From: a virus
Direction: 5' to 3' (one strand)
Virus record (IMG/VR): IMGVR_UViG_3300024273_002024
Span: 1-23,820 of that record
DNA length: 23,820 nt
Of the stretch, positions 1,388-20,020 are shown one piece after another. Under the pieces are notes generated by a model that saw only the letters and a list, made by a program, of their open reading frames with translations, was not told where the DNA came from and ran no database searches. A program made the translations under genes and the position numbers. How positions within the stretch are numbered: the first letter of the stretch is position 1; each line of letters opens with the position of its first letter.

Positions 1388-1397
1388 TTACACTAAA
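1388..1397 (-). promoter_or_regulatory. TTTAGTGTAA motif upstream of the LRR fibre gene
   Basis: The minus strand reads TTTAGTGTAA, then eight bases, then the ATG of the LRR gene. The same ten-mer occurs at 12788-12797 and 19266-19275, also just upstream of starts. It does not resemble a Shine-Dalgarno sequence. It could be a -10-like promoter element giving a very short leader, or a translation signal. The motif is seen directly; its role is inference. Confidence 0.4.
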
Positions 1398-2405: not shown

Positions 2406-2411
2406 GTGTAA
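2406..2411 (+). promoter_or_regulatory. GTGTAA element, eight bases before the gpL start
   Basis: GTGTAA is the core of the TTTAGTGTAA motif found at three other gene starts, and it sits at the same eight-base distance from the ATG at 2420. The wider ten-mer matches at only 7 of 10 positions. The spacing supports ATG 2420 as the start rather than the TTG at 2414. Its function is inferred. Confidence 0.25.
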
Positions 2412-2419
2412 TATTGATT

Positions 2420-3478
2420 ATGGGAAAAGGGATAAATACAAATATAGCTGAAGAAATTTTAAGTTTAGAGCCTACTTCTTTGTTGGAATTGTATGTATTA
2501 TACTACGATTACCAAAACGATTCTCAAGCAGTAATGTATTTTCATGGAGGAACTAATGGATTAGGGAGACCAATATTTTTTGATGGTCAAGAATATCTAC
2601 CAATCCCAGTGGAAGGAGATAGCTTCCAAGTTCTGGGTGATCAAAGATTGCCAAGACCAAAAATGAGAATTTCAAATGCGGGATTGTATGTTTCATCTTT
2701 ATTAAGAAAATATAACAACTTAAACGGTGCTAAATTAATAAGAAGACGTACATTTGTTAAATTTTTAGATGACGAAAACTTTCCAGAAAACAAAAACCCT
2801 TGGGGTAGCGCAGATCCAAATGCAAAGCTTTTAGATGAAAAGTTTTTTGTATCTAGAAAAATTTTAGAAAATAAAATGTTAGTTGAGTTCGAACTTGTAT
2901 CTAGTTTAGAATTAGAAAACATAAATATACCAAGCAGAGAAATTTCAGCGAGATACTGTAATTGGGTCTATAGAGGATATGGATGCCGATATGGTTATAA
3001 CTCAAGATCTTTACTGGATGGATTTGATCGACCGATTGCGGACATAAGAGATAATCTTTTAGTAGTCCCAGACGGGGGCAACTGGCAATTAAACCCTGAG
3101 GTGTTCTCCAGCCCCAAAATAGCGTCTAGCATTAATGGGGTTTTAACAAATCAAGGTAGATGGGCAGTGGGGCAGAGTTATTCCCCTGGAGATTATGTCC
3201 ACACAGTAAGCGATAGAATTAAAAACTCTCAAGGTTTGACCGCTAATTACTTTCAAAACCATCCAGTTTACTATGTCTGTAAAGTTACTCATATTGCAAC
3301 TGATGCTTCAAGGCCACAATTAAATTCAAATTTTTGGGTAAAAGACGAATGTTCAAAAAAAATAAATAGTTGTCAGTTTAGATACGATAATGAGTTATAC
3401 GCTGGGGAAGATGGTATAAATAATGATAAAAGTCTTCCATTTGGGGGATTTCCAGGAACCGACACTTTTAGTTATTAG
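2420..3478 (+). CDS. L: Phage minor tail protein L-like (tail-tip, Fe-S cysteine family)
   Basis: This 352-residue protein begins the tail-tip operon. Counting from the ATG at 2420, residues about 1-185 follow the lambda gpL plan. The C-terminal half holds the family's cysteines: C180 and C189 (in YCNWVYRGYGCRYG) and C311 and C318 (in DECSKKINSCQFRY). These correspond to the four cysteines that bind an iron-sulfur cluster in lambda gpL. Between the two pairs is an extra segment (about residues 200-305) with RWAVGQSYSPGDYV, VYYVCKVTH and a final W, resembling a small carbohydrate-binding module (type 5/12). gpL caps the tail tube and contacts gpJ. A TTG at 2414 would add two residues, but the ATG fits better. 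The JAMM gene follows after two bases. Confidence 0.85.
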   Translation: MGKGINTNIAEEILSLEPTSLLELYVLYYDYQNDSQAVMYFHGGTNGLGRPIFFDGQEYLPIPVEGDSFQVLGDQRLPRPKMRISNAGLYVSSLLRKYNNLNGAKLIRRRTFVKFLDDENFPENKNPWGSADPNAKLLDEKFFVSRKILENKMLVEFELVSSLELENINIPSREISARYCNWVYRGYGCRYGYNSRSLLDGFDRPIADIRDNLLVVPDGGNWQLNPEVFSSPKIASSINGVLTNQGRWAVGQSYSPGDYVHTVSDRIKNSQGLTANYFQNHPVYYVCKVTHIATDASRPQLNSNFWVKDECSKKINSCQFRYDNELYAGEDGINNDKSLPFGGFPGTDTFSY

Positions 3479-3480
3479 AT

Positions 3481-3852
3481 ATGTTAAAAAAAGATATAGA
3501 AAAAAAATCGTTTCAAAACGTAAAAGAAGAAGCTTGCGGCTTCATTTATTTAGAGAACGAAAAGCTTAAAATTTTAGAAGTAAAAAATTCAGCAGAAGAT
3601 AAAACTTCAGAATTTTTAATATCCGCGAATACTTACCTTTATGCGAAAGAGAATTACGAAATAGTTGGGATATATCATTCTCACCCTTCTGGTTCAGAAG
3701 AGCCAAGCGAATATGATAAAAAATGTGCAGAAATAACGTGTTTACCTTTTATTATATATTCAATAAAGAGAAGAAAATTTTCTGTTTTCTGCCCAGAGTT
3801 ATTAGAAATAAAACAATCTATTGTAGAGCAATTACGAAAAGAACTGTTATGA
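3481..3852 (+). CDS. Tail assembly protein K-like, JAMM/MPN peptidase domain only
   Basis: This 123-residue protein has a complete JAMM/MPN+ metalloprotease signature: E17 in EEACGF, then H66 and H68 in HSHPSGSEEPSEYD, followed by S76 and D79 of the same motif. In lambda, gpK carries this domain plus a C-terminal NlpC/P60 peptidase and is part of the tail-tip initiator assembly. Here the protein ends straight after the JAMM domain, so the NlpC/P60 half is absent. Position between L and I supports the assignment. It starts two bases after the gpL stop, and its TGA overlaps the next gene's ATG (ATGA), suggesting translational coupling. The zinc-binding residues are intact, so proteolytic activity is plausible, but the substrate is unknown. 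Confidence 0.85.
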   Translation: MLKKDIEKKSFQNVKEEACGFIYLENEKLKILEVKNSAEDKTSEFLISANTYLYAKENYEIVGIYHSHPSGSEEPSEYDKKCAEITCLPFIIYSIKRRKFSVFCPELLEIKQSIVEQLRKELL

Positions 3853-4421
3853 ATATAATTTTACATGGGATTATTGCTAATAAATTTAAATCACATTTTA
3901 GTTTTGCCCAAAATATAAAAAAAGATCATGTTTTAGAAGCTGTTGAATCTCGCCAGCCGAGTTTTAAAGTTTTTATTAAAAAATTAGCTAGTCAAAACAT
4001 GTACTATGAAATAGCGCAAGAAAATGAAGACTACCATATTGTTCCCGTTATTCATGGTAATATAGGTGCAATATCTGCTCTTTTAAACCCTAATTTAATT
4101 AGATCTTTAGTAGGGATGGGCGCTAATTTTGCGTTAAATGGGTTGAATTCATTAATTACTCCCGATGAAGGTGCAATTTCCATATCAAAACAAGTCGTTT
4201 TACAGGGTTCTAGATTAGAGAGTTTAAGAAATAACAAAAGTCAAGGATTAACTATTCCACTAGGATACGGGAAACTTAAAATTAGTAGTAGTGTCGTCCA
4301 ACAATACAAAGAAAGCGTTAATGCTAATGATGTAGAAAGTATTAACGAAAGTAGCAATGACACATCCGCCACGTCCGCACCTATAGAATACTCGAATCCA
4401 TCAGTATACGAAATAAAATGA
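3849..4421 (+). CDS. Tail assembly protein I-like, first copy
   Basis: Taking the ATG that overlaps the upstream stop codon gives 190 residues; an earlier in-frame ATG at 3723 would overlap the JAMM gene by 130 bases and is unlikely. The N-terminal part looks like the small beta-grasp domain of lambda gpI. It is followed by a Gly- and Leu-rich hydrophobic segment at about residues 70-103, then IPLGYGKLKISSS (136-148), the conserved GYG motif near the end of the gpI core. A Ser/Asn/Asp-rich tail follows. gpI acts in tail-tip initiator assembly in lambda. The next gene is a second, more canonical gpI-like protein, with a four-base ATGA overlap. This copy is the more divergent, so its assignment is somewhat less certain. 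Confidence 0.7.
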   Translation: MNIILHGIIANKFKSHFSFAQNIKKDHVLEAVESRQPSFKVFIKKLASQNMYYEIAQENEDYHIVPVIHGNIGAISALLNPNLIRSLVGMGANFALNGLNSLITPDEGAISISKQVVLQGSRLESLRNNKSQGLTIPLGYGKLKISSSVVQQYKESVNANDVESINESSNDTSATSAPIEYSNPSVYEIK

Positions 4422-5044
4422 AAACACAAATAATATTATACGGCAGGATGCGGAAACTTTTTGGCGAAAAATTTGAATTTTCAAACGTCCCTAATTTAAA
4501 AGTCGCTATATCGGCGTTAAATAGCGTAAATAATGATTTTAAAAAAACTTTGATGGATGATTTTTCAAATGGTATGAATTATCAAGTTTTTATAAATAGA
4601 GAGCTTGTTAAAAATGTCAAAGCTGTCAAACGCCTAGAAAAAAATTCTACAATAGAGATTGTCCCGTGTATCTCTGGGCAAGACCCAATTACAATATTAG
4701 TTGCTGTTGTCGGTAATCTCATAATAACAGGAATAACAATGCTATTAACTCCTGCGCCAGAATCTATAGATGAACAAAGAATAGAAGCCTCAATAAAGGG
4801 GGAGAGTTATATATTTGAAACTCCAGATAACGTAGCTAGACAAGGGCAAGCTTATCCGCTGGGATATGGAAGGTTAAGGATAGGCTCTCAAATTATAAAT
4901 TCTACTGTAACTAGTGTAGATTTAGCTAACTTCTCAACCTCCCAACCTGATTTAGGATATGATAATATAACAGAACAGTTGTCCGAATTTTTAAATTTAG
5001 ATGTTTTAAATAGAGGATATTTCAATGGTGGAATACAGAATTAG
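4418..5044 (+). CDS. I: Tail assembly protein I-like, second copy
   Basis: This 208-residue protein has the full gpI layout. An N-terminal beta-grasp domain (QIILYGRMRKLFGEKFEF and on to residue 80) is followed by a hydrophobic segment (ITILVAVVGNLIITGITMLL, about 91-110). Then come the conserved FETPDNVARQGQAYPLGYGR block and RLRIGSQII around residues 134-160. The block matches the hallmark end of lambda gpI-family proteins, where a stretch like NxARQGxPVPxGYGRLxxGS is typical. The gene overlaps the first copy by four bases and lies 11 bases before the first J gene, as expected for the L-K-I-J order. Having two I-like genes in front of two J-like genes suggests each may partner one J. Confidence 0.85.
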   Translation: MKTQIILYGRMRKLFGEKFEFSNVPNLKVAISALNSVNNDFKKTLMDDFSNGMNYQVFINRELVKNVKAVKRLEKNSTIEIVPCISGQDPITILVAVVGNLIITGITMLLTPAPESIDEQRIEASIKGESYIFETPDNVARQGQAYPLGYGRLRIGSQIINSTVTSVDLANFSTSQPDLGYDNITEQLSEFLNLDVLNRGYFNGGIQN

Positions 5045-5055
5045 ATTCTTAAAAT

Positions 5056-8000
5056 ATGACTGTAATAAAAAATAAATTATCTAAAATCATAAGAGGTGCA
5101 GATAAAAAAGGTGATTTTGATATTAGCTATCTTTTGTTGGCCAGTGAAGAGGGAAATTATTTAAAAAGCACGGATTATGCAAAAACTTTAGATGTTTTAT
5201 GTGAGGGGCCTATAGAGGGGTTTATAGATGGGGAAGGAGAAAGAGTATATGGATCTGATATTTTAAAAGCTATTGATTTAGATGGCACTCCAATAAAAAC
5301 ATCAGACGATGAGTATAATTTCCAAAATATTTCTGTGGATTATAGATTGGGGCTTGAGAATCAAGATAGTATACCCCGATACTCTAAGCCAATTATAAAC
5401 ACAGAAGTAAATAAGCCACTCCTTGGAGCATTTATCCCAGGCGACGTTAATAACAGCCCCGAATCACAAAGAAAAGCTGTATATTCTTACGAGTTTCAAT
5501 ATTACCCTGACCAAGAGGTACAAATCAGAAAAAAGACTGACCCTGGTAATCACCAGATACTAGAATATCGGAAAGAACTAAAGACTTTAACTAATATTAC
5601 TGTTTTGGATCCAGGCAAGGGGTACGATGGTGTAACAACAGCCGAGCCAAAATTTGAACCAGAATATAATCAATTCCGAACTTTTAATGGTCGTATTGAA
5701 GAGGAACCGACATTTGATATAACTTACAACGTCGAGGGTGGCGTTAATACTATTTCTATATTAAATGGTGGGAGGTTCAATGTTTTTGATTCATATACTG
5801 GTTACTCAGGGACTGCGCCAATAGAGCAATGGTATGTTAGCGGGACAATAACTGGTAACCTTCAGGAAGGCGCTGGTGCTGGGGAGCCGCCTGATAGAAC
5901 TTATAGAGGTTCTGGCAGTATTACTTATGATGAATATAGACCTGATGAATTTGGTAGTTTAGTTCAAACAAATGTTACGGAAACTGGGTTTTTTGACACC
6001 CAAGGATACTACTATATATCTTTATTCGGGGAGGCTAATATACTGTATTACGGCTACCTTCCTAAGAGTGGGGGGTTCGCTTACGATCACTATTTTGTAC
6101 AAAGTGCAGATAAACCATTCAACGAAACGTATGGTCTAATTTTCGAAGGGCCAATGGCTTATACGGGATATTCTGGAATTCTCGATCCACTTTATATAAG
6201 TGGACGAACAACAGAATTAGGATTTAACGCTACGGTTAACTTTCCCACTTCGGATCTTAATTTAGCAACATTAGGGCAAACAGATACGGATATAAGAAGT
6301 AATCAAGAAGATTATGCGGGTTGGAACACAAATAAAAGTAAGCCTTACGATTATTTTCCACACACCCACATAATAACAAACGATGATGTAGATAGCGTCG
6401 ATCTTGTGGTAAGTATTGCTAGGTTAAATGATACACAGTACGAAGCAGATTCAATATTTGAAATATGGAAAGAACCTGAATTTAGTATCTTCGGTGGAGC
6501 AGATGATGGTGAGGGATCGGTTGCTTTTTCAATTGGTAGACCAGAAGATTCTTTTGTAAAATTTAAAGTAGAAATTGGATTTACAAATACCGATTATGGG
6601 AAGGAAACTTTCGAATATGTCGTCAATGGGCAAACAGCTGAAGGCTATTTAAAAGAACTAAAGGATATAAACCTTCCAACTTACAAAAGTCTTTCGTCCG
6701 AATTATTTTTTAGTTCTTTACCAGAACTAAAAAGTAGATACAAAAGATATGTTAAAATAACGAAAAATATGTTTGAAACGGACTCTGTATTGATTAACAG
6801 AGATGTCGCCCTATCATCCATAAAGGAAAAAATAAATTCTAACTTTAGATACCCTTTTTCAACTTTGGTTGGAACGACTATAGATTCAAGAACTTTTGAA
6901 ACAGTTCCAGTTAGAACATATAATACCCAGTTAAAAAGAATACAAGCTCCAGAAAACTATAAACCTTTAACGCAAGAGGGTTTAGATAAAAGATTTCAAA
7001 CAGACGAAGAAAATTACAATGGGGTGGAAATTATAGATGTTTCAACGTTTACGCATGAAGCTGCGTTTCCTACATTTGCCATTAGTGCTGAACGATCATC
7101 ATATGGTAAATGTATATCCGCGTATAAAGAAAGTTATGTTCTTTCTTGGTTCGATTTTGGGAAACTCGAATTTGGAATACCCGACCAATCTTACGGCAAT
7201 CTTTTTTATTTTCCTGGAGACGGAACAAGGGAGGCTATTAAAGCTGGAACGACAAGGTATCAAACTTTGAGTTTCATCAAGAAAGACGATTACAAGACCT
7301 TTGATTTCGTGTATCCAGAACAAATTGTGGGTGACCCATATATACAAAACCAATTAACCCTTGCACCTTTTGTGGGTCCTGGCTTCTTTACGTTTAACGG
7401 CAATACGTTGGCTGTAACGATATTTGCGGGTGGTAATGTTTTCGTAACTCCTCCAATACAAGTAGAATTCTACAGCACGAAACAAAGCATGAGTGTAAGC
7501 TCTCCGTATTTAAAAGTACCGCCTGGAAAACTTTCGCTTTTAGAGTTTTCCTGTAGTTGGGAGGCCCATCCAGATACGTATCCCGATGCATTTATAACAA
7601 CTGTCGAGGGCGTAGGTGGTATTGTAGTCGGGTTTGTAGAAAATATGTCGGACCCAAAACCGAAGTATATTATTACGAAGATAAATCGGAGCCAAAGTCT
7701 GATGGGCCAGCAAACTTTAGAGATATACCATGAAGATCCTAAAACTCTTTATGTAAAATTTTTTGCAGTACAGCTGACATCGCTGAGTAGTACAAGCGCA
7801 CCAGGTGGGCCAGTCATTAACAGCGTTTATAACATTGAAGACGAACTTAAAAAAGTGGACGAAGATAATATAGATTATGGATATGCGGATATAGGAGATG
7901 ACGCTGGGCTTCAATTAAGGCCCTATTCAATGAGGATTAGTAACTTAAAGATGGAGGAAGACATATTAGGGAATTTTTATTCTCTTGGAGACGAATTTAT

Positions 8001-11000
8001 TGAGTTGAGTGATCAATATATTATTTGCGACGCAATGAGGAATGGCGCTTATGATAAACATGTCATACTTGTGATTAAAAGGAATAAGGCAACAAAAACC
8101 TGGCACTTTTTCCAGGAAATTGAATCATGGGACGAGCAACCGATTAATGGCGTTATATCAGAAGACGAAAGAAGAATAATCTTGAATGTAAGAGCTTCGA
8201 CTTCAACAGCCAAGCCTATTAAGGTGTATGATTTTGATGATTCAACTAAACAATTTGAAAGGACGGCTTCATTTGGTCGTTTTGAAGGTGATTTTAAAGG
8301 CCAGAGAGTGATTAGTTCTTCAAATAATCACCTAAGTTGGATGGCATCACCTGATCGAAATACTATAATTATTCATGAGCCTCAATCGAGGTTAGTAAAT
8401 GAAATAAATTCAACTAATTATAATGTAGTATTAGTTTATAAAGAAATAAATGGTATTTTTTCATTGCACCAATTGATACAGCCGCCCGATTCAGAAAATC
8501 TTGGAACGACTTGGTCAGCTGTAGACGTTAAAATGGATTGGCTGATAGTCGGTTATAGGGATCACCAAAATGATGAAGATTTAAAAAGCGACGGTTCCGC
8601 CGCTCTTTTCAGGTATAATGGTAAAATATATGAGTATGTAAAAACATTTTGGGGAGATCAGGTTATCGATCCCAGATTAGGATCGGTCGTACGTCTAGAT
8701 GAAAATTTTGGAGCAACAGTTGCTATGGGTCAAAATCAAAATGGAGATGTAGAATTAGCAATAACGTCCGAGTTTAGCGAGGCTGGAGAAGAAAGTAAGT
8801 TATATATATATGAAATACACCCAGATAAAGACGAATTTGATGAGTCGTCAATAAACACCTCTACAGAACTATTATATAATAGAACAACGAGACGCCAGCG
8901 AGGTATAGATTTGGACGGGACAAATGTTTTGGTCTATATGGAGAAATTACGTAGCGATTTAACGTCTCAAGTTCTCAAAGTTAGCAAAAAAAGCCTTAAA
9001 TATTCAAAAAGAATATATGAAGACGCATTGGGTTGGAATGGCATAATGCAAGAGAAATGGACAGATAATCCAGTTTGGATTGTTTATGATATGTTAACTA
9101 ATCCAGTGTATGGAGCAGGAGTCGCCCTAGATGATTTAGAAGATATAAATATATTTAATTTTTATAATTTAGGAAAATATTTTGATTCAGTAGATGAAAA
9201 AGGCTTTTTTATTCCGCTTTATGACGAAAAAGGTTCTACGGAACCAAGATTTTCTTGTAATTTTTTATTGAAAGAAAGTTTTAATGCTTTTGATGTAATC
9301 AACTCTATTACTGATTTGTTTTTTGGCGCTCTTTATCTTTCTAATGGGCAATACAATTTGTGGGCGGACGTACCCACGGAGACTACGTTCTTTTTCAATA
9401 ACGAAGATGTGGTTGATGGAAATTTCACATATTCAGATAAACCAAAAAACGAAAGGACTACAATTATAGAGGTCCCTTACTTAGATAAGTATGACGACTT
9501 TAAGCCAAAAATAGAATATATAGAAGATTCTGTCTTAATGAGAGAAAACGGCAAAATTAGTAAAAGATTAGAATTTGGAGCGTTTACTACTAGGTCCCAG
9601 GCCAGAAGATTCGGCAAACAATATATTTACAACAACTCTTATGAAACAGAAAAAATAACATTTGAGACCGACAATAAAGCTTTGTTTTTAAACCCTGGAG
9701 ATGTTATTGGAGTTAACGACGATTTAAAAAAGTTTTCTACCGAAAAAATGTTCTGGTCTGTTGATCAAGTTGTTTATGAAGAAAAAATTCATATAGTGCA
9801 ACATCCTAGTGGCACAAGTAGTACGAGTGGGTTTTTATATTCCGAGGCTACCTTAAACGATGGCGAATTGTCTAATGCAAAGTGGGATTTTAAACAAATT
9901 AAAACTATCAAAGGAAATGGTAGCACTCAATACCCCACACACTTTGATTTAAAAACCGACAATAATGGTACGCCATACATATTAGCCCAATCAACTGATA
10001 ATATATCTCTTTATAGAAAAACGGGGGATTCATTTGATCGACTCAGTTTTACTAATCTTGATGATCCATACGCTACCAGTCTTCAGTGTGAGAGTTATAT
10101 AGATTTTGATTCGAATAACGTACCATATATATCTTTAATAGGTAATGGCGTTTATAATAACGGCGCTGATCAAGGTGTTGGGTTTATGAAACTTGTTGGA
10201 AACGACTTTTCGGACCCAGCGTCTTGGCAAGTGCGTTATATAGCTCAAATAGACCCACTTCAAGAAGGACTCGAAGCAGATAGAAGAATTTCTAAGATAA
10301 AAATAGATGATTTAAATAATATATATTTATTAACTAGAGTTGTAGATAGGACCCCTATTAGTGGGGAGCTTAATTTATATAAAATTAATGAATCATCTAA
10401 TTATTTTGCAAGATATAGATTTGGAGGGATTCCATACTCGAATGATGATATGAGGTTTGATATTCAGATTAAAAATGGGACAACACCAGCAATAGCTTAT
10501 AAGGCTTCTAAAGGGCCAACTCTTTATAGATTAGATCCGCATATATTTTATACAGAGTATGTGGGTGGGGATTTTGAAAACTCAGGCTCCTGGAATGATG
10601 TTTTTGTACACGGCACAGAAGACTTATCTCAGGATGATATAAAATTATCTTTTAATAAAAATATACCTTTTATTTCTAACTCAAGTCATTTAGAGAATGA
10701 TATAAGAATATATACACCTTTAACTGGCGATATATGGAATCATGCTAATTGGGCAACAAATAAAACATTTATTACACAACCCGCAATATATAGCGCTGCT
10801 CCTTTAATATTTTTAGGCAATAATGACCCAGTACTTTTTAAAACTGATTATAATATCAGTAACGGTGACAGGAAAAAAGGTTTGAGTACATTTCAGTTTA
10901 AAGAAGATTTGTCCAAGTTTCAGATGACTCAAAAATGGGAATTTAATCAGGTGTACGGCCACGAAAACGTAGGTATATATACGTCTTTTGTTAACTCCCC

Positions 11001-12792
11001 ATCTGTAGATAATTTTATCACTCAGCCACCAAAAATAACTTTATTAAATTCTCGTAGAGACTTTTTCGATAATGATTTCGAGTTAGATTTAAATACAGAA
11101 AATAATTTAGAGGTTAATTATCTCGGTGGCACTGATGTTGATTTAAAAAATCTTTACAACAAAACTCAGTTTGAGGATTTAATAGTGAATGAAGATTTTG
11201 AGGTGACAAAGTCTTTTCTGACAATTACTGGGTACGAAGAAAGCGGTTCCTATTTAAATCTTTACCCCACAATCAATAAAGAATCTATAGAGACTATACA
11301 ACTTCTGAAAGCTAAAGGAACTTTGGTTCGACCAGTTAAAGCCAATAAAAAACCTACAGAATATAGAGTTTTAAATATTATAGAAAAGGATCAAAATTTA
11401 TTTGAAGTACAGGGGAGAGAATTTCATTCTGGAAAATTTAGTGCAATAGAAAGCGCTGAGAATATTTCTTCACCATTGCAAGAAATATATAATATAGGTA
11501 TACCATCTCATACAATAAATAAACCATCACAACCTATTGGTGTTTCTTATGATGTCGGCATAGATGAGGGTGGTGGAGCTTTCGTTATTGGCTCTATTAC
11601 TGGAGAAGTAAATGGTTCGGAAACTAAGTATAGACTATCTATAACATCTCCAAATTTAAAATATAAATATATTGAGATAGAAAAAGATTTTGAAAATCTA
11701 TCCCCACAAAATGAGCCTATAACAAATTATGGTTTTTATAATTTAAATCAACCAGGAGAGTACGAGCTTACTGTTAAGTCTTTAAGAAACCCAGAGTCTA
11801 GCACTTTTATTTCTCAAAAATTTGAAATAGAATTCGGAGAAAAAGTTTCCGATAAGCCTTATATATCTTCAATTAATATATTTAATAAAGATGAGTATAT
11901 AAAACTAGAAATAGACACAAGAAATGTGTATGGTGATAAGTTTGAGCTTACAAATGGTAAAGCGAGTATTGATATAAAATTAAATGGAGTGTTATGGCAA
12001 GCCGACAGGACTATTAAAACTTTTGAAACATCATTGCAAGAATTAAGAGAGTTTTGTGGTTTAAATCATAGAGCAATTGTAATTGATGTTGAGTTATTTT
12101 ATGATGGCGCTAAAGTTTCAGAAATTACCAAAACTCTTACTGACAAGCCCCCCAGAATAAATAATGCAGAATTCTTGAGTGATGGCGTAGATTCCTTAAT
12201 AAAATTTGATATGGAGGATGATTTTAAACTAAGGCTTGTCTCTGTATATTATTCTGGTGAAAAAATAAAAACCCACCAACTCAAAAACCAGAACCAAACA
12301 CAAATTATAAATTTTTATGATTTCGAAATAGAAAAAATTCCAGTATCGAGTGATTTGTCTTTCTCTTTAATTCCAGAAGATGTTTATGGAACTGGGCAAT
12401 CTTTTGACATAAGTGGGTTTATACCAGAAAAACAATCTTCACTAGATATATATAATGAAAGTATAATTACAATATATTCAATCAACTCACAAGATCAAAG
12501 TTCTGGAGTGTTTGATAATTTTAATTCTTCGAATGGTTTAACTAAATTTTATGGAACCAATAGGGATAGCTTAATTGAATTTTCTAGTTCTTTAGTAAGC
12601 GGTTATAGCGGCTCAATTTCGGCAAAAATCATATCCAATACCGACTCCAAAGATATTCCAATAGAGTTTGATAATTTAGGTTTTAAATCTACCAAAAAAA
12701 TCACTAATCTGTTAAATGAAGAGTATTCTGTTTATATATCTGGTCAGTATGGCTTATTCGATGGTTATGAATTGAAAATTAAAAAACTTTAG
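5056..12792 (+). CDS. J: Central tail-tip/host-specificity protein J-like, giant copy with beta-propeller inserts
   Basis: This 2578-residue protein is about twice the length of lambda gpJ. The J-family landmarks appear in order: LDVLCEGPIEGF (45-56); a hub region ending near 640 with NFRYPFSTLVGTTIDSRTF and PENYKPL; the tip domain beginning TDNPVWIVYDMLTNPVYG (about 1335) with EPRFSCN; and an FN3-like segment near 2149-2265. An ITVLDPGKGYDGV / TISILNGGRFN pair (about 175-235) resembles beta motifs frequent in phage structural proteins. Two large insertions break the core. Residues about 657-1330 include a run resembling FG-GAP beta-propeller blades. Residues about 1569-1990 contain six blade-like repeats. 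gpJ trimers form the tail tip and bind the receptor. No Shine-Dalgarno sequence is visible before the ATG. Confidence 0.9.
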   Translation: MTVIKNKLSKIIRGADKKGDFDISYLLLASEEGNYLKSTDYAKTLDVLCEGPIEGFIDGEGERVYGSDILKAIDLDGTPIKTSDDEYNFQNISVDYRLGLENQDSIPRYSKPIINTEVNKPLLGAFIPGDVNNSPESQRKAVYSYEFQYYPDQEVQIRKKTDPGNHQILEYRKELKTLTNITVLDPGKGYDGVTTAEPKFEPEYNQFRTFNGRIEEEPTFDITYNVEGGVNTISILNGGRFNVFDSYTGYSGTAPIEQWYVSGTITGNLQEGAGAGEPPDRTYRGSGSITYDEYRPDEFGSLVQTNVTETGFFDTQGYYYISLFGEANILYYGYLPKSGGFAYDHYFVQSADKPFNETYGLIFEGPMAYTGYSGILDPLYISGRTTELGFNATVNFPTSDLNLATLGQTDTDIRSNQEDYAGWNTNKSKPYDYFPHTHIITNDDVDSVDLVVSIARLNDTQYEADSIFEIWKEPEFSIFGGADDGEGSVAFSIGRPEDSFVKFKVEIGFTNTDYGKETFEYVVNGQTAEGYLKELKDINLPTYKSLSSELFFSSLPELKSRYKRYVKITKNMFETDSVLINRDVALSSIKEKINSNFRYPFSTLVGTTIDSRTFETVPVRTYNTQLKRIQAPENYKPLTQEGLDKRFQTDEENYNGVEIIDVSTFTHEAAFPTFAISAERSSYGKCISAYKESYVLSWFDFGKLEFGIPDQSYGNLFYFPGDGTREAIKAGTTRYQTLSFIKKDDYKTFDFVYPEQIVGDPYIQNQLTLAPFVGPGFFTFNGNTLAVTIFAGGNVFVTPPIQVEFYSTKQSMSVSSPYLKVPPGKLSLLEFSCSWEAHPDTYPDAFITTVEGVGGIVVGFVENMSDPKPKYIITKINRSQSLMGQQTLEIYHEDPKTLYVKFFAVQLTSLSSTSAPGGPVINSVYNIEDELKKVDEDNIDYGYADIGDDAGLQLRPYSMRISNLKMEEDILGNFYSLGDEFIELSDQYIICDAMRNGAYDKHVILVIKRNKATKTWHFFQEIESWDEQPINGVISEDERRIILNVRASTSTAKPIKVYDFDDSTKQFERTASFGRFEGDFKGQRVISSSNNHLSWMASPDRNTIIIHEPQSRLVNEINSTNYNVVLVYKEINGIFSLHQLIQPPDSENLGTTWSAVDVKMDWLIVGYRDHQNDEDLKSDGSAALFRYNGKIYEYVKTFWGDQVIDPRLGSVVRLDENFGATVAMGQNQNGDVELAITSEFSEAGEESKLYIYEIHPDKDEFDESSINTSTELLYNRTTRRQRGIDLDGTNVLVYMEKLRSDLTSQVLKVSKKSLKYSKRIYEDALGWNGIMQEKWTDNPVWIVYDMLTNPVYGAGVALDDLEDINIFNFYNLGKYFDSVDEKGFFIPLYDEKGSTEPRFSCNFLLKESFNAFDVINSITDLFFGALYLSNGQYNLWADVPTETTFFFNNEDVVDGNFTYSDKPKNERTTIIEVPYLDKYDDFKPKIEYIEDSVLMRENGKISKRLEFGAFTTRSQARRFGKQYIYNNSYETEKITFETDNKALFLNPGDVIGVNDDLKKFSTEKMFWSVDQVVYEEKIHIVQHPSGTSSTSGFLYSEATLNDGELSNAKWDFKQIKTIKGNGSTQYPTHFDLKTDNNGTPYILAQSTDNISLYRKTGDSFDRLSFTNLDDPYATSLQCESYIDFDSNNVPYISLIGNGVYNNGADQGVGFMKLVGNDFSDPASWQVRYIAQIDPLQEGLEADRRISKIKIDDLNNIYLLTRVVDRTPISGELNLYKINESSNYFARYRFGGIPYSNDDMRFDIQIKNGTTPAIAYKASKGPTLYRLDPHIFYTEYVGGDFENSGSWNDVFVHGTEDLSQDDIKLSFNKNIPFISNSSHLENDIRIYTPLTGDIWNHANWATNKTFITQPAIYSAAPLIFLGNNDPVLFKTDYNISNGDRKKGLSTFQFKEDLSKFQMTQKWEFNQVYGHENVGIYTSFVNSPSVDNFITQPPKITLLNSRRDFFDNDFELDLNTENNLEVNYLGGTDVDLKNLYNKTQFEDLIVNEDFEVTKSFLTITGYEESGSYLNLYPTINKESIETIQLLKAKGTLVRPVKANKKPTEYRVLNIIEKDQNLFEVQGREFHSGKFSAIESAENISSPLQEIYNIGIPSHTINKPSQPIGVSYDVGIDEGGGAFVIGSITGEVNGSETKYRLSITSPNLKYKYIEIEKDFENLSPQNEPITNYGFYNLNQPGEYELTVKSLRNPESSTFISQKFEIEFGEKVSDKPYISSINIFNKDEYIKLEIDTRNVYGDKFELTNGKASIDIKLNGVLWQADRTIKTFETSLQELREFCGLNHRAIVIDVELFYDGAKVSEITKTLTDKPPRINNAEFLSDGVDSLIKFDMEDDFKLRLVSVYYSGEKIKTHQLKNQNQTQIINFYDFEIEKIPVSSDLSFSLIPEDVYGTGQSFDISGFIPEKQSSLDIYNESIITIYSINSQDQSSGVFDNFNSSNGLTKFYGTNRDSLIEFSSSLVSGYSGSISAKIISNTDSKDIPIEFDNLGFKSTKKITNLLNEEYSVYISGQYGLFDGYELKIKKL
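9838..10990 (+). repeat. Six blade-like protein repeats inside the giant J (second beta-propeller candidate)
   Basis: Within the giant J, six segments share a hydrophobic-strand / acidic-turn / strand pattern: HFDLKTDNNGTPYILAQ, YIDFDSNNVPYISLIG, KIKIDDLNNIYLLTR, FDIQIKNGTTPAIAYK, DIKLSFNKNIPFISNS and PLIFLGNNDPVLFKTD. They alternate with W-containing strands such as NAKWDFKQI, ASWQVRYIA, GSWNDVFVH and QKWEFNQV. This periodicity is what a six-bladed beta-propeller would give. No counterpart exists in the second J. Confidence 0.6.
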
Positions 12793-12797
12793 TGTAA
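12788..12797 (+). promoter_or_regulatory. TTTAGTGTAA motif between the two J genes
   Basis: The motif spans the TAG stop of the first J gene and lies ten bases before the ATG of the second. It is identical to the minus-strand motifs at 1388-1397 and 19266-19275. If it is a promoter element, the second J gene could be transcribed independently of the first. Confidence 0.4.
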
Positions 12798-12807
12798 AAG
12801 TAATTGG

Positions 12808-15800
12808 ATGAAGGTTATAAAAAATAGGTTTTTTAGGAACACCCCCAGGGGCGCTGGTAAGGCTGGAGGCAGCGCAGAGTCTGTTTACTTGGTTCCGCCG
12901 CAGAACAGCAACGCATTGTATAGCTTGTCTGTACTCAAATCATTAGACGTCATCTCTGAAGGCCCCATAGAAGGATTATGTTTAAGTAATGGAGAGAGAG
13001 CTGAAAATTCTGATGTCCTTTCATCTGTATATTTTGATGAAACACCAGTCAAAGTAGAAACGGCTAAAAGCTCCTGGATTCAAGGATTTGGGGCAGAAAA
13101 TATTCAGTTGGTCGATAGGCTTTCAATAAATTCGTTAAATGCGTCACTCAATAACATAGAATCGAATATAAACCAATATATTAGCGCTGGTGATTCCTCA
13201 GATGGGTTAGCGCAATTAGCTTTACAAAGTTTATCGAGAACACAAGAAGAGCTTGGAGATCTTTTCAATAATTTTGATGAACATGGGGCTTTAGCTGGCC
13301 ATTTAGGAATTATACAGTTTGACATAGAAGATGTTACTACTAATCTGAATTCTACCCTTTATTCGAACGCTAAATCTCCAATTGGTTTAAATTTTTTATT
13401 AAATGAGGATACTCACGAAAGATACGTGAAGGTCGAAAACGGGGAAGAGATTATAAAAATTCCCAAAAATATTTTTGGATTCACTCCTGATTTTGATTCT
13501 ACTGATATACAGACTTCTGCTGATAGTATTTTTGAGTTAAAAAGAATTAGAAATTTTATTGGTGGAGGTATATTCTTTTTTTACATAGGTGATGAGGTTG
13601 CTACAGGAGCGGGGGGAGAGTTTTTAACAGGAAAGTTTTTATTACCCACGCCTAACCAAAGTGAAATACAAAGCGGTATAGATAATAATTATGATATATT
13701 TCTTACTGGTTCTAGTATAGAGTTTTTAAATACCACTCACGGACAAGTGTGTCCATCTTTTGGAGAAACTATTGGCAAATCAATAAGATTAGGAGCTAGT
13801 GTTGATAATAACATAAAATATAATTTTAATAATGTTTCTGTTGAAACTAATTTGGGTTATGAATTTCAAAAACCGATAGCTAATTATAGCCAAATTAAAA
13901 GAGATACACCTATTTATAAATCATTACTCGGGCCATTTGCTAAAGCAGTAAATGATGAAGGGCCTGGAGCTAGCGATGGTGTAACCATTTTAGACCAGTT
14001 TGGAAATATTACGACCTATTCAAAAGTAGGACTTGGTAACAATGATGTTAGAACTGATAGTTTTGGAGACGGCTTCACACAAAACTTTGCTATTTGGAAT
14101 GACATATCATCAGTACCTTATGATAGGTTTGGATATACCCATATAATATATCAATCTGAAGTGGATGAATTGGCTCCCACCATACAAATAAACTTATTAA
14201 AAGACACTGAGGCTACAGATGACGATACCCTTGGGAGATCTGAGCCAGCTGGTTTGGTCATAGATTTCTATATAGGGTTTGAAAATTCTATTACTAGCGA
14301 AGAATCTTTAGTATCTCTTTTGGATAGAGGAGTAAGTCCTAAGACATTACTATTAAATACTTTTACGGAAAAAAAATCAGCTGGGTACTACGGATTGGCG
14401 GATACGCCCTATCAAAATACCCCATATTCATTTGTTTTGCCAAAAAATAGTGTTTTAAAAAATTTACAAACTCGTGATATCCCAGGGATGACCACTGAAA
14501 TTGCTGATGAATATGGATTAGATTTTAATGAAGTTTTATTCCCAAACGAATCTTGGAGACAGGTTAATAGATTTGTCACCACAGAAAAACGAAGCCACGA
14601 AACAGAATCGGTTCTTATACAGAGGGTTTGTAGTTTAGCGTCTGTAACAGAAAAAATAAATTCTGAATTTAGTTATCCTTTTTCGGCTTTGGTCGGGACA
14701 ACATTAAACGCTAGGACTTTCTCAACATCACCAATCAGAACTTATGATGCAAGATTAAAAAAAGTTCTAGTCCCTTCTAATTATTGCCCATTAAAGGCGG
14801 ACGGCGAAGATAAAAGATTTATTATTAATGATAAAAAATATGGAGAAAGACGGGTAACAAGACTTACAAACGCTCAAGCTGCTTTGCCTGGAATAGTTTC
14901 TTTGGGAATTGATAATTTTGAAATTTCCTTTAAATTTAAAAGCGCCTCTCTATTAGGGGCTGGACTTTCTGGAAATTGTGTTTTTAGGGCTGACGGAGGA
15001 TCTGCAAACATAATATTTCTTCAGGAAGATGGAAAATTTGTATTTAAAGCTGATAATATCACTCAATCAGATGTCTTAATTGAGTTTGATTATTCAGTTT
15101 ATTCATCTAATGATGTTTTTGAGTTTTCTATTAAATGTGTAGATAGAAAATATACTATAAATTTGACAGTTAATAATGTATTTCAAGAATCCAAATCTGC
15201 TTTATATACAAATATTAGACCGAGTTTAGTTTACGAGGATCAATTCTATATAAGTCAACCATCAGCCAACACGAGCATACAAATTGCTGATTTTAAGATT
15301 AAAAAAAATAATCAATTGCTACATCATTTTGATGGGACTCAAATATCCACATTAAGATTTGGACCCTGCCTTAAAGATAGAATTGGAGGATTCCACGCTC
15401 ATATTACGGGTGGATATGTAGGGCTATCTGATCCAGATTTTGAATTTGGCAGAAATAAAGAGCAGGTTTATATTGGAGAATGGGACGGGACATTCAAACT
15501 GGCTTGGACTGATAATCCAGCTTGGATTTTGTATGATTTAATGATTAACCCTGTTTATGGAATTAGAAATCAAATAGATGATATTGAGGATATTGATATT
15601 TTTGAGTTGTATATGCTCGGTAGATATGCCGACGCTGTAGACTCAGAGGGTTATTTTGATGGTGTTTCTGATTTTAATGGAGGCTTGGAACCAAGATTTT
15701 CTTGCAATATGATATTAAGGGAGAAAGAAAACGCTTTTAATGTTATAGGGAATATTGCTTCTATATTTAGGTGTATAGCTTATTGGGCTGGAAGTTCTTT

Positions 15801-18141
15801 CAATTTTTCTATAGATAAACCTAAAGAAGCTACATCTATATTTAATAATGGGAATGTCACAGATGGTTCTTTTAGCTACGGCGATATACCCAAACAATCT
15901 CGATTCACTAGAGTTGAAGTGCTTTATGCCGATAAGAATGATTTTTATAAACTTAAAAAAGAATTTATAGAAGACGAAGAAAGAATCAGGCAATATGGAT
16001 TAATAACAAATACACAAAATGGCATAGGTTGCACTTCAAGATCTCAGGCTAGGAGATTGGGTAAATATATTATCTTAAGCAATAGACTAGAGACGGAGAC
16101 CGTGAGTTTTACCACTGATCAAAAAGCGCTTCTTTTGGTTCCTGGGGACATTATTAGAGTAGATGATGAGATAAAGAACTTTGAAATAAATTATGGCAGA
16201 GTTTTAGATCATGGAGTATCTAATAATAATTTTTATGTTTCCATAGAAAATACAACAGACCCTGACAGCATAATAACGGGAAGTGATGGTGGAATTTATT
16301 TATATAAAAGTCGAGGACAGACGGAAATAAAATCTCTATATAATATAATTAAATTTAACCAACCGTATACCATAGGAGAAGATTCAGATAAATATGTAGG
16401 GGAGCTAAGTCAAGAAAAAATAAACGAGGCATATGAGAGTTTCCTTTTTAAGGCTGAAATTACTGGGGTAGAACCCCAACAAAATGCTACTAAATTATAT
16501 TTAGATTTAGATTCAGATCAACAAGTTTATTTCTCAGAACTAAAAAATGGGTCTACATTTAATGTGGAATTAGAAAACGAAGTTAATAACTTTTTTAAAG
16601 TTACTAGTATACAAGAATTAGAGCCTAACATTTTAGAAGTTCAAGGGTTGCAGTATGATTATGATAAATTCGAACAAATAGAAAGTTTCGACTTTAAGGA
16701 AATAGATAAAAATACATATAATATAGGTTTGGTATCTCAAAATATCAATAGACCTAGCCCACCATCAGGTTTTACAGTGGGGGTATATTATGACGGCATT
16801 TCAACCTCAATAACTGGTCAAATATCTGGAGTTTTGGATAGTTCCGAAACAAAATACAGAGTGTCTGCATTTGCGCCAAATGGGTCTTATTTTTATAAAG
16901 AATTTTTAAAGGATACCTCGCTCTCTCCACCAGTTACCGAATATTCTCTATTTAACTTATCTCAAATTGGCGGATACACTGTATCGGTAACTTCTTTAAG
17001 AAACCCAGAATCAGCTGATTCTCCAGAAAAAACCATATCGATTGGCAGTGAACACATCAACACTTCTCTAAAATTTAAAAAAGTGACACTGAAAGGAGCT
17101 AAACAAGAAACAACTACTTCTCAAGGCGAACTTTCTTATAAAACGGGAGAGTCTTTAACTATAAATGATAATTTTCATATTACTTTACAGAACGACGATG
17201 GTATTTACGTCCCATTTAATTCTAATCTAGCCCCATATGTTACGGTTAAAATATTTGGAGAGAATGATGATTTTATTTCTGAAATAAGAGAGGAGTTCAG
17301 ATCTAATGATTTGTATATTAATAAAATAGAAAAAGATCAATTATTGCTAAATCAAAGAAACTACACATTGGGTTTTTACCTAAAAGATTTCGAAGGTAAT
17401 CTTAAAGACACTTTAATGTATAGTGTTTTAAATAAGGCTCCAAGTTTGTCTATTATTGAAACAAAAAATATGCAGGACAAAATTGTTTTTGAGTTGGATT
17501 TATTGAATAATTTAGATATAAAAAATATAAAAGTTTATGATTCTGATGATAATGAAAATTTTAATCTGTTAAAAACAGAAAATATATTTAACACAAACAG
17601 CGTCTCTTTGCCAGTTTTTTATGAGGAAGTTGATCGAGATTCTGATATTTTTTACAAATTTTTACCCACAGATTCTTTGGGAAGTGGATATTTTTCAGAA
17701 GTTGTCTCTGCGAGTATTGTAAAACCCGTAACTAATTCTAGCCTGCCTATAGCGGAAATCAACCAACAATTAGATCAATCTTTATTATCTGTATATTTTG
17801 CTCAAGGTGGCGGAGACTTAAATATACAATATTCGACCAACAATAAAAGTAGTTTTGATTTTGCACAATACTCAAGTGATGGCAGAGAATTGGGCTACAA
17901 TGTTTCTATGGATTGCTCTTATTATTCGAGTGGGCAAGCCGAAAATAGATTAATGAGTTTGAATAATATTATTAATTTAAATCTCAGCTCTCAAAGCACG
18001 GAATCAAAAACATCTTTTTATAAGAAATCAAAAGTAAATTGGAGTCAATACGGAAACCAAGATCTTTCTTTGTCTATAAATAATTTAAATGGACTTGATG
18101 TAGAGCAGTTTAACATAGAGATAGAAAAGTTTTACAAATAA
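12808..18141 (+). CDS. Second J-like central tail-tip/host-specificity protein
   Basis: This 1777-residue paralogue of the preceding J has the same landmarks: an N-terminus MKVIKNRF (cf. MTVIKNKL); LDVISEGPIEGL (46-57); the hub block with FSYPFSALVGTTLNARTF and PSNYCPL (about 588-665); the tip domain starting TDNPAWILYDLMINPVYG (about 898) with EPRFSCN; and an FN3-like region with TSLRNPESAD (about 1310-1411). Residues about 108-190 look alpha-helical, possibly coiled coil. At the position of the giant J's first insert it has a 210-residue insert instead (about 678-888), including DNFEISFKFKSASLLGAG and LHHFDGTQ, resembling a LamG/concanavalin-like jelly roll. It lacks the second propeller. 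The gene starts 15 bases after the first J and ends flush against a convergent gene. Confidence 0.9.
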   Translation: MKVIKNRFFRNTPRGAGKAGGSAESVYLVPPQNSNALYSLSVLKSLDVISEGPIEGLCLSNGERAENSDVLSSVYFDETPVKVETAKSSWIQGFGAENIQLVDRLSINSLNASLNNIESNINQYISAGDSSDGLAQLALQSLSRTQEELGDLFNNFDEHGALAGHLGIIQFDIEDVTTNLNSTLYSNAKSPIGLNFLLNEDTHERYVKVENGEEIIKIPKNIFGFTPDFDSTDIQTSADSIFELKRIRNFIGGGIFFFYIGDEVATGAGGEFLTGKFLLPTPNQSEIQSGIDNNYDIFLTGSSIEFLNTTHGQVCPSFGETIGKSIRLGASVDNNIKYNFNNVSVETNLGYEFQKPIANYSQIKRDTPIYKSLLGPFAKAVNDEGPGASDGVTILDQFGNITTYSKVGLGNNDVRTDSFGDGFTQNFAIWNDISSVPYDRFGYTHIIYQSEVDELAPTIQINLLKDTEATDDDTLGRSEPAGLVIDFYIGFENSITSEESLVSLLDRGVSPKTLLLNTFTEKKSAGYYGLADTPYQNTPYSFVLPKNSVLKNLQTRDIPGMTTEIADEYGLDFNEVLFPNESWRQVNRFVTTEKRSHETESVLIQRVCSLASVTEKINSEFSYPFSALVGTTLNARTFSTSPIRTYDARLKKVLVPSNYCPLKADGEDKRFIINDKKYGERRVTRLTNAQAALPGIVSLGIDNFEISFKFKSASLLGAGLSGNCVFRADGGSANIIFLQEDGKFVFKADNITQSDVLIEFDYSVYSSNDVFEFSIKCVDRKYTINLTVNNVFQESKSALYTNIRPSLVYEDQFYISQPSANTSIQIADFKIKKNNQLLHHFDGTQISTLRFGPCLKDRIGGFHAHITGGYVGLSDPDFEFGRNKEQVYIGEWDGTFKLAWTDNPAWILYDLMINPVYGIRNQIDDIEDIDIFELYMLGRYADAVDSEGYFDGVSDFNGGLEPRFSCNMILREKENAFNVIGNIASIFRCIAYWAGSSFNFSIDKPKEATSIFNNGNVTDGSFSYGDIPKQSRFTRVEVLYADKNDFYKLKKEFIEDEERIRQYGLITNTQNGIGCTSRSQARRLGKYIILSNRLETETVSFTTDQKALLLVPGDIIRVDDEIKNFEINYGRVLDHGVSNNNFYVSIENTTDPDSIITGSDGGIYLYKSRGQTEIKSLYNIIKFNQPYTIGEDSDKYVGELSQEKINEAYESFLFKAEITGVEPQQNATKLYLDLDSDQQVYFSELKNGSTFNVELENEVNNFFKVTSIQELEPNILEVQGLQYDYDKFEQIESFDFKEIDKNTYNIGLVSQNINRPSPPSGFTVGVYYDGISTSITGQISGVLDSSETKYRVSAFAPNGSYFYKEFLKDTSLSPPVTEYSLFNLSQIGGYTVSVTSLRNPESADSPEKTISIGSEHINTSLKFKKVTLKGAKQETTTSQGELSYKTGESLTINDNFHITLQNDDGIYVPFNSNLAPYVTVKIFGENDDFISEIREEFRSNDLYINKIEKDQLLLNQRNYTLGFYLKDFEGNLKDTLMYSVLNKAPSLSIIETKNMQDKIVFELDLLNNLDIKNIKVYDSDDNENFNLLKTENIFNTNSVSLPVFYEEVDRDSDIFYKFLPTDSLGSGYFSEVVSASIVKPVTNSSLPIAEINQQLDQSLLSVYFAQGGGDLNIQYSTNNKSSFDFAQYSSDGRELGYNVSMDCSYYSSGQAENRLMSLNNIINLNLSSQSTESKTSFYKKSKVNWSQYGNQDLSLSINNLNGLDVEQFNIEIEKFYK

Positions 18142-19257
18142 CTAATCTCTAATTAAATAAAATACCGCATCACATTTCATAACAAATTCTGGATAGTCGT
18201 TTTTTATATATGGCCTAATATTTTCGTAAAGTTTTATAAATTTGAACATTCTATGTGGCCTGTTGTTTTTGTGAATAGCTATTTCAATAATCATTAAAGA
18301 CGATAGTCGTATTAATAGTAATTTATAACAAACCTTTTTGTATTCTGTTAGTTTGCTATACGCTAATTCAGATTCCATATCTATTTTTTGATGAAATTTT
18401 ATATAATAATTCAAAAATTGTTTTTCCAAATTTTGGTTTTTATTTATACCTGTATAAAAGATCAATAAAGCTATATCGAAAAACGGGTCTAAATAGAACG
18501 AGTCTTGAAAATTTATGAACTTTATAAAAAAATCTCTTAGTAAAATTCTAGATTTAGATAAAGCAGTATGACACAGACTGATGTTGTTCTGTTTTAATTG
18601 ATCACAATCACTAGATATAGAAATTTTTAAGTCTGATAAAAATTTAATGTAATCATCTAAATCAGGTATCTGTTTTAAAATATTTTCTAAAGCTTCCTTT
18701 GGAATTATTTCGTTAAAATCAGATTGATCAAAAATGCTTTTTAAAAACAGATCAATTTCATTCTCTTTTTGATCTTGTGTTGTTTCATGTATGTATGAAA
18801 AATTATTAGCCAAAATTTCTAAATAAGAAATTAATTTACCCTGCTCTAAATCAGCAAAAGAATCGCTAATTTCTAAAGAGCAAACCATTAAAAAAACTTG
18901 AGAACCTGCATATTCGACAGAATCATATAAAATTGGACTCGGGGCAATAGGTTTTTCTTCTAGAGTTTTTAAAGCTTCAAATTCTCTTTTTAAAATTTCA
19001 TCTGGATCATCTTCATTGATTTTTAAAATAAACATTTTACCACTATTTTTAAATGAGTAACTATCGCACTCATAGTTATTGTCGATTATAGACAACGTTT
19101 CCATTGCTTCGTCAATATCAAGCGTTTCCGCAAAAACGCTCTTTTTTAAAATATCGTTTATAAATTGCGATTCTTCTTTGGAGAATGTTTTGTCTTCAAC
19201 TCCGACAAAGACTCTTTCTTTCAAAAATTTTGAGGTATTAAATTTATCAAATGACAT
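18142..19257 (-). CDS. APH/choline-kinase-fold protein, probable pseudokinase
   Basis: This 371-residue protein has the N-lobe of the aminoglycoside-phosphotransferase-like kinase fold: a strand with the nucleotide-binding lysine (MFILKI, K79), a following KREFEAL helix with a Glu, and a hinge-like VFLMVCSLE. The catalytic loop expected as HGDLxxxNIL instead reads CHTALSKSRILLRD (H230 kept, Asp replaced by A232, Asn by R237). The metal-binding IDWE reads INFQ (N249). The downstream LDPFFDIALL still matches the family's DPxxDLA. It therefore keeps the fold but lacks the catalytic Asp and metal-binding Asp, so phosphotransfer is unlikely. It is the last gene of the minus-strand operon, 13 bases after its neighbour, and abuts the end of the second J with no gap. 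Its role is unknown; a nucleotide- or glycan-binding function is speculative. Confidence 0.6.
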   Translation of the reverse strand: MSFDKFNTSKFLKERVFVGVEDKTFSKEESQFINDILKKSVFAETLDIDEAMETLSIIDNNYECDSYSFKNSGKMFILKINEDDPDEILKREFEALKTLEEKPIAPSPILYDSVEYAGSQVFLMVCSLEISDSFADLEQGKLISYLEILANNFSYIHETTQDQKENEIDLFLKSIFDQSDFNEIIPKEALENILKQIPDLDDYIKFLSDLKISISSDCDQLKQNNISLCHTALSKSRILLRDFFIKFINFQDSFYLDPFFDIALLIFYTGINKNQNLEKQFLNYYIKFHQKIDMESELAYSKLTEYKKVCYKLLLIRLSSLMIIEIAIHKNNRPHRMFKFIKLYENIRPYIKNDYPEFVMKCDAVFYLIRD

Positions 19258-19265
19258 AATTATAT

Positions 19266-19275
19266 TTACACTAAA
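19266..19275 (-). promoter_or_regulatory. TTTAGTGTAA motif upstream of the pseudokinase gene
   Basis: On the minus strand, TTTAGTGTAA ends eight bases before the ATG at 19257. Its TAG is the stop codon of the upstream 249-residue gene, the same arrangement as between the two J genes. The identical spacing to the LRR-gene copy argues against chance. Confidence 0.4.
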
Positions 19276-20020
19276 TTAGTTTAAGGAGCTTTCGGCATTC
19301 TTTCGCTGGGATGTCTTTGTAATCTTTCCAGGTCTTGATAACTTCTGGATCGTTCTCGTATTTACCGTCCACATAAAGCTTGCGTAGCTTAGTTAAAAAA
19401 GAATTGAAGTCTGTACCTGCTTTCTCTTTTAAAATGCCTTGTGGGCTAATATCCTTCGCTCCAGAGCTAGGAGCGACAACAATTGGAGCTTTGTTTCTTG
19501 AGGTATCGATTTCATCTGCTCCCACAATATGAATACCTAAGAAATTACGAACAGTACGGACGAATGCACGATTTTCCGCAATACATTCCAAGAACTTAGC
19601 AGCAAACCCGTTTGTATTATGGACTGTGGCGTTAGCGATGGAGGAAAAACTAAGACTACAGCCTTCTGGATCTGGGTTTTCATAATTAGCAATAAATTCT
19701 ACGATACAACGAACCACTGATCGTTCATCAGAACTTTCTTCTACATTGTACCCTACGCTCTTGATACCTCGAAGTTTAGCTAATTCTTTAATTCCACCGA
19801 GTTTAATTAAAAGCTGGTTGTCCTCTAACCCCTCAATAGATTCTGGGAGAGGCATCTTACGCATCTCAAAATGCTCTTTGTTTGGGTATAGGTGTTCTGA
19901 GCTAATCATAGCTCGCCAATTCACCGAACCATCCTCGTTAAATGTATATTCAACAGACTCTAGTAGTCCGTGTTCGTTGCGCTTCCATAGATCTGGGCCG
20001 TATATTTTATTTTTCTTCAT
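19271..20020 (-). CDS. Conserved phage protein, possible ssDNA-annealing/recombination-like
   Basis: I do not recognise this 249-residue protein with certainty. Residues about 120-171 are SSIANATVHNTNGFAAKFLE, then CIAENRAFVRTVRNFLGIHI and VGADEI. The [AE]xRAxxRxxRxxLxI-V-xxxEL pattern resembles the C-terminal helix region seen in Rad52/Sak-type annealing proteins of phages. The N-terminal half (IYGPDLWKRNEHG, VNWRAMIS, IKLGGIKELAKLRG) would be the beta-rich part. After residue 175 comes a Pro/Lys-rich linker, then a short C-terminal helix region (PEVIKTWKDYKD). The gene is visibly richer in G+C than its neighbours, suggesting a different history or higher expression. It overlaps the upstream gene by 14 bases. 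The function is a guess from pattern; a general phage replication/recombination protein is the safest description. Confidence 0.45.
   Translation of the reverse strand: MKKNKIYGPDLWKRNEHGLLESVEYTFNEDGSVNWRAMISSEHLYPNKEHFEMRKMPLPESIEGLEDNQLLIKLGGIKELAKLRGIKSVGYNVEESSDERSVVRCIVEFIANYENPDPEGCSLSFSSIANATVHNTNGFAAKFLECIAENRAFVRTVRNFLGIHIVGADEIDTSRNKAPIVVAPSSGAKDISPQGILKEKAGTDFNSFLTKLRKLYVDGKYENDPEVIKTWKDYKDIPAKECRKLLKLI

Follow-up and report, generated by a model that had tools for sequence, protein, structure and literature searches.

A lambda-type tail-tip operon with two gpI-like and two gpJ-like genes in a phage lineage from metagenomes

We describe a tail-tip operon that breaks the one-I, one-J rule of lambda-type tails: its plus strand encodes, in order, L-K-I1-I2-J1-J2, with two gpI-like and two gpJ-like genes. 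The operon lies on IMG/VR record IMGVR_UViG_3300024273_002024, a linear fragment of 23,820 bases that was analysed in its entirety and is hereafter called the window; the other contigs analysed are likewise fragments. On balance, we favour the interpretation that the operon specifies two parallel plug-hub sets, I1 with J1 and I2 with J2, on a shared scaffold of L and K.

Two I and two J genes in one operon

The preliminary description of this DNA, made from its letters, had proposed two gpI-like and two gpJ-like genes in the order given above, and the open reading frames together with matches to phrog_32 and phrog_31 bear this out (Table 1). It had also considered that I1 might prove unrelated to gpI; I1 matches phrog_32 at 3.5e-9. 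Both I genes sit between K and J, as membership of the gpI family requires, and a search of solved structures matched the I profile to lambda gpI (8iyk_I, 3.6e-17) and the J profile to lambda gpJ (8iyk_J, 4.6e-79). Within the window, I1 and I2 share 26% identity (E-value 4e-9) and the cores of J1 and J2 share 48%. In family searches the window K has the JAB domain and lacks the NlpC half. The start of L was placed at the ATG at 2420, and a longer version from the TTG at 2414 is possible.

Table 1. Features of the tail-tip operon and promoter-like elements in the window
Feature	Coordinates	Strand	Evidence or remark
GTGTAA element	1388-1397	-	window
GTGTAA promoter-like element	2406..2411	+	14 nt before L
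L, tail-tip hub/minor tail protein	2420..3478	+	Phage_tail_L PF05100 6e-39
K, JAB-domain protease-like, gpK family	3481..3852	+	PF14464 1e-10, phrog_30 1.5e-21
I1, gpI-like plug protein, 190 aa	3849..4421	+	phrog_32 3.5e-9; aligns with relatives' I1
I2, gpI-like plug protein, 208 aa	4418..5044	+	phrog_32 9e-27; I2 clade 98/88
J1, gpJ-like hub protein, 2578 aa	5056..12792	+	phrog_31 4e-85; Phage-tail_3 3e-18; J1 clade 98/90
J1 site-B insert, residues about 672-1327	7069..9036	+	large only in window group
J1 conserved core (Phage-tail_3)	9286..9771	+	family search
J1 site-C insert, residues about 1600-2044	9853..11187	+	site measurement
GTGTAA promoter-like element	12792..12797	+	16 nt before J2, within TTTAGTGTAA copy 12788-12797
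J2, gpJ-like hub protein, 1777 aa	12808..18141	+	phrog_31 1e-99; Phage-tail_3 2e-16; J2 clade 98/98
J2 site-B insert, residues about 690-880	14875..15447	+	LamG/LNS-like fold
J2 conserved core (Phage-tail_3)	15727..16188	+	family search
GTGTAA element	19266-19275	-	window

Outside the operon, positions 66-1379 (minus strand) encode a BspA-type leucine-rich repeat protein (PF13306, 2e-103), possibly a fibre or surface protein, which is preceded by a GTGTAA element. Between J2 and a gene that we call F lies, in the window group only, a minus-strand gene (18142-19257) with a weak match to APH-type phosphotransferases (4e-4, below the cut-off). Gene F itself (19271-20020, minus strand) is about 76-96% conserved among the contigs found with F and is a marker of the phage lineage; it has no match among cultured phages, PHROGs or Pfam. 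Searches by DNA and by gene F returned no cultured relatives. Elsewhere, contigs L101, L102 and L104 show that the lineage encodes a DnaE-type polymerase, a DnaB-like helicase, a UvsX/RecA-like recombinase, a ClpA-like ATPase and RIIA/RIIB homologues.

Spread of the double cassette and related locus states

Relatives were gathered via J alignments and, independently of J, via the flanking gene F and L. About 30 other contigs, from other metagenomes, have two adjacent I genes in the order L-K-I1-I2-J1-(X)-J2, and the arrangement is therefore neither chance nor an assembly fault. Co-occurrence of I1/I2 with J1/J2 in related genomes, a check put forward in the preliminary description, was found throughout the usable contigs: a second J is present in 15/15 two-I contigs continuing past J1 (those with >600 bases beyond J1), some of which are mutually close, so that they represent fewer than 15 independent events. 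The first two relatives, L002 and L003, show the same order, with J1 and J2 separated by an ORF, X, of 127 aa. ORF X (L002:8066-8449 and equivalents, about 121-140 aa) occupies the J1-J2 gap of most double loci and is absent from the window group. It matches no family and does not resemble the C-termini of J, and the idea that X is a detached J1 C-terminal domain was rejected, with a profile comparison probability under 2%.

That lambda-type tails normally use a single J, as had been stated at the outset, agrees with the wider survey: each of the 33 loci returned from bacterial genomes has a single J, and of the 1540 cultured phage records matched by J, at most 4 are matched in two places. Beside gene F, one I and one J were found in all eight complete contigs of this kind (L107, L108, L113, L114, L118, L119, L121 and L123). 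Their J proteins form a distant clade in the J core tree, so the cassette in these contigs was probably exchanged rather than reduced. Two further contigs, L030 and L106, have the order (I)-J-I-J beside the same flank genes as the double lineage; this is an independent, more recent duplication.

Multiplied I genes also occur with a single J. In L062 (2262-6504), a single J is preceded by a tandem array of three gpI-like genes, whose products of 472, 433 and 499 aa are all extended at the C-terminus; in the Pseudomonas loci L175, L176 and L177, one J accompanies a tandem pair of intact gpI genes. An extra I therefore requires no extra J, and the coupling of I and J characterises this lineage without holding generally. 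In L089, L090, L091 and L095, a gpI of 829-936 aa is followed by a J split into an N-terminal ORF of about 300 aa and a separate core ORF. J is encoded in two ORFs also in L004:295-9424, L126:7125-11425 and L069:2069-12334; the split lies near the N-terminus of J1 in L004 and L126 and within the site-B insert in L069.

History and selection of the two copies

In the J core tree, J1 and J2 form clades with support of 98/90 and 98/98, respectively, and are sisters (89/84), which places one duplication before the divergence of the double contigs. According to this phylogeny, the J duplication is old and both copies have been retained. The I tree recovers the I2 clade (98/88) and scatters I1 by long branches instead of recovering it as one clade, although the test does not reject such a clade (p 0.156). 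Estimates of dN/dS come from L002 and L007, the only usable close pair, and are 0.35 for J1, 0.30 for J2, 0.11 for I1, 0.21 for I2 and 0.055 for L. Being well below 1, they indicate that both copies are maintained under purifying selection, and the J values substantiate the initial impression that neither J is decayed.

Contig L069 carries just one I and one J, the latter in two ORFs. AU tests put its J in the J2 group, the alternatives having p 0.011 and 0.0115, and its I in the I2 group (alternatives p 0.032 and 0.037); the p values are modest, and the choice of tests was post hoc, after the trees were inspected. The joint retention of the I2 and J2 types would fit cognate I-J pairs. We also tried tree-distance correlation as evidence of pairing and rejected it: J1 tracks both I, J2 tracks neither, and I1-J1 and I2-J2 are not singled out.

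Anatomy of the two J proteins

Profile alignment matches J1 to lambda J residues 7-71 and 99-484 or 609, and J2 to residues 10-57, 33-254 and 203-696; beyond residue ~696, lambda J aligns to neither. A C-terminal central fibre or receptor-binding part like that of lambda was accordingly not found in J1 or J2; this part varies across the gpJ family and does not define membership. The hub blocks and the PF13550 core are found in both proteins, in agreement with the preliminary description, which had both J retaining the landmark blocks of the family. AlphaFold models are weak (L002 J1 residues 640-1579, pLDDT 57; window J2 residues 1-1200, pLDDT 60), and Foldseek gives lambda or T1 gpJ as the best match of both (1e-36 for L002 J1 and 1.2e-15 for window J2).

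Sequence change is concentrated differently in the two copies, mainly in the site-A insert for J1 and in the site-B insert for J2. Between L002 and L007, J1 identity per 60-residue block is 16-86% over residues ~120-660 (site A), and J2 identity per block is 0-46% over ~660-1080 (site B) and is also lowered at residues 120-300; the cores and C-termini of both J are 76-100% identical. At site B, every J2 measured has 245-501 aa; J1 proteins from beyond the window group have 40-50 aa there, as do the measured single-J proteins with three exceptions. The window J1 is exceptional, with a site B of 685 aa and a site C of 597 aa.

Modelled at pLDDT ~80, the window J2 insert matches LamG/LNS domains, and for the J1 insert of L002 CBM_4_9 scores 2.3e-5, just under the cut-off. 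A Pfam search of the window J inserts gave no named domain, and the idea that the inserts of J1 are beta-propellers found no confirmation. Since the C-termini are conserved and the inserts variable, we infer that the variable lectin-like inserts, not a C-terminal fibre, contact the host surface.

A promoter-like element upstream of J2

The sequence TTTAGTGTAA has three exact copies in the window (0.12 expected), each directly upstream of a gene. The shorter motif GTGTAA is found lineage-wide, in the window plus L002-L151, and lies 13-20 nt upstream of the start codon in 62/372 distinct lineage genes against 0.75 expected, with a sharp mode of the distance at 14 nt. It thus shows both the fixed start-codon distance and the large excess over chance by which we recognise a promoter element. 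Shine-Dalgarno sites, counted without GGTG because it overlaps the motif, were seen in 1/62 genes with GTGTAA versus 67/310 without (Fisher p 4e-5). Given the excess at a fixed distance and the missing Shine-Dalgarno sites, GTGTAA is probably a promoter, one that would yield near-leaderless messages. A scan for sigma-70 promoters and terminators returned promoters at chance level.

In the tail-tip operons of the lineage, all J2 genes examined have GTGTAA upstream, at 14-20 nt or, in L004/L005, at 27 nt, and nearly all L genes have it too. K, I1, I2 and X never do, nor does J1 where it is a single ORF; the split J1 of L126 has the element before its second half. This placement before L and J2 and not before K, I1, I2 or X makes separate control of J2, suggested earlier from the motif in front of that gene, well supported and likely.

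Probable plugs rather than chaperones

In the lambda tip, gpI serves as a structural plug attached to gpJ, the plug being formed by the C-terminal part of gpI, and gpK was not found in virions (PMC10721106). The gpI deposited in 9e7m is a 90-residue chain matching the C-terminal half of the I profile, in line with gpI trimming. Both I1 and I2 retain, by alignment and profile, the region of gpI that forms the lambda plug. It had been suggested that the I duplicates could be matched chaperones, an idea that the lambda structure argues against: since gpI is there a structural plug bound to gpJ, the two I copies are best read as matched plugs.

Proposed assembly and alternative explanations

By homology to the lambda tip, K would trim each I, the C-terminal part of each I would plug the tip interior, strand-paired with its cognate J, and J1 and J2 would build hub trimers on L, apart or together. 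The inserts would display two adhesion specificities, so that one phage may recognise two surface targets, and the separate promoter could allow the dose or timing of J2 to differ from that of the L-K-I1-I2-J1 unit. Both J proteins are likely to be present in virions. Whether both plug-hub sets would reside within one tip is a closer call, which we place somewhat short of an even chance. A specific form of such a tip, built from I1-J1 and I2-J2 on one L ring, with two adhesion modules at different positions and a mixed plug that closes the tube, is put forward tentatively.

The two sets may instead be used in alternation, each virion carrying J1-I1 or J2-I2, which would give two virion types as bet hedging, with the J2 promoter setting the ratio. 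The presence of two complete hub-plug sets with just one L and one K speaks for this possibility, as do the separate promoter-like element of J2 and contig L069, whose only set is of the I2-J2 type, so that one set can suffice. However, the locus shows no sign of a switch, an invertase or a mutually exclusive arrangement, the two sets would arise in the same cell, and the cores, at 48% identity, are similar enough to mix; we regard alternation as a little less probable than a shared tip.

A division of roles, in which one J is the structural hub and the other an accessory tail protein (e.g., an extra adhesin) with the extra I as its partner or chaperone, seems unlikely to us, because each J has all the hub blocks and is under purifying selection, and I1 and I2 alike preserve the part of gpI that is the plug in lambda. 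In its favour are the consistent difference in insert site between J1 and J2, the fast evolution of J1 in the window group and the differing distances of J to the two I. As for a recent or neutral duplication heading for loss, or an assembly artefact, loss did occur in L069 and J is split in L004, L126 and L069, but the duplication is older than the divergence of all double contigs, it turns up in separate assemblies, and the one usable pair, L002/L007, has dN/dS values well below 1; we consider such an origin highly improbable. Two parallel plug-hub sets on a shared L and K scaffold remain our preferred reading.

Comparison with known systems

Lambda-type tips are the textbook example of one hub and one receptor. 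A lineage that keeps two hub-plug sets through long divergence offers a direct test of a mixed versus a two-version siphophage tip, and of the mutual recognition between I and J. The single (L107 group), double and independently doubled (L030) states of one locus form a natural comparison.

With the lambda tail tip (PDB 8iyk, 8k35, 9e7m) the window shares the L-K-I-J order, the gpI and gpJ families, the gpJ hub blocks and the PF13550 core. Lambda has one I, one J and a K with the NlpC half, whereas the window has two I, two J and a K without NlpC. The receptor-binding part of lambda is the J C-terminus; here, the C-termini are conserved between close relatives.

L030 and L106 resemble the double lineage in their flank genes (F 52% identical) and have two J with 80-90% identical cores and a divergent site A. 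They differ in gene order, in that the first I would fall past the contig end, and in having no GTGTAA at either J start.

Our literature search, in which subscription journals were thinly covered, returned no described tip keeping both I and J in two copies. A tandem J-like duplication is already known, in Caulobacter phage CcrColossus, where gp122/gp123 were reported simply as a duplication of phiCbK gp99 (PMC3556154); the search hints that the co-duplicated form of I and J may be without a description. When we compared gp122 and gp123, they showed 53-59% identity towards both ends and a divergent middle. CcrColossus thus has a tandem J-like PF13550 pair, as here, but with no gpI annotated alongside and in one genome only. 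A further parallel is provided by evolved Dit and Tal, in which carbohydrate-binding modules are inserted in structural baseplate proteins (PMC7291167); these systems have one hub gene, whereas the lineage described here has two hub paralogues with inserts at different sites.
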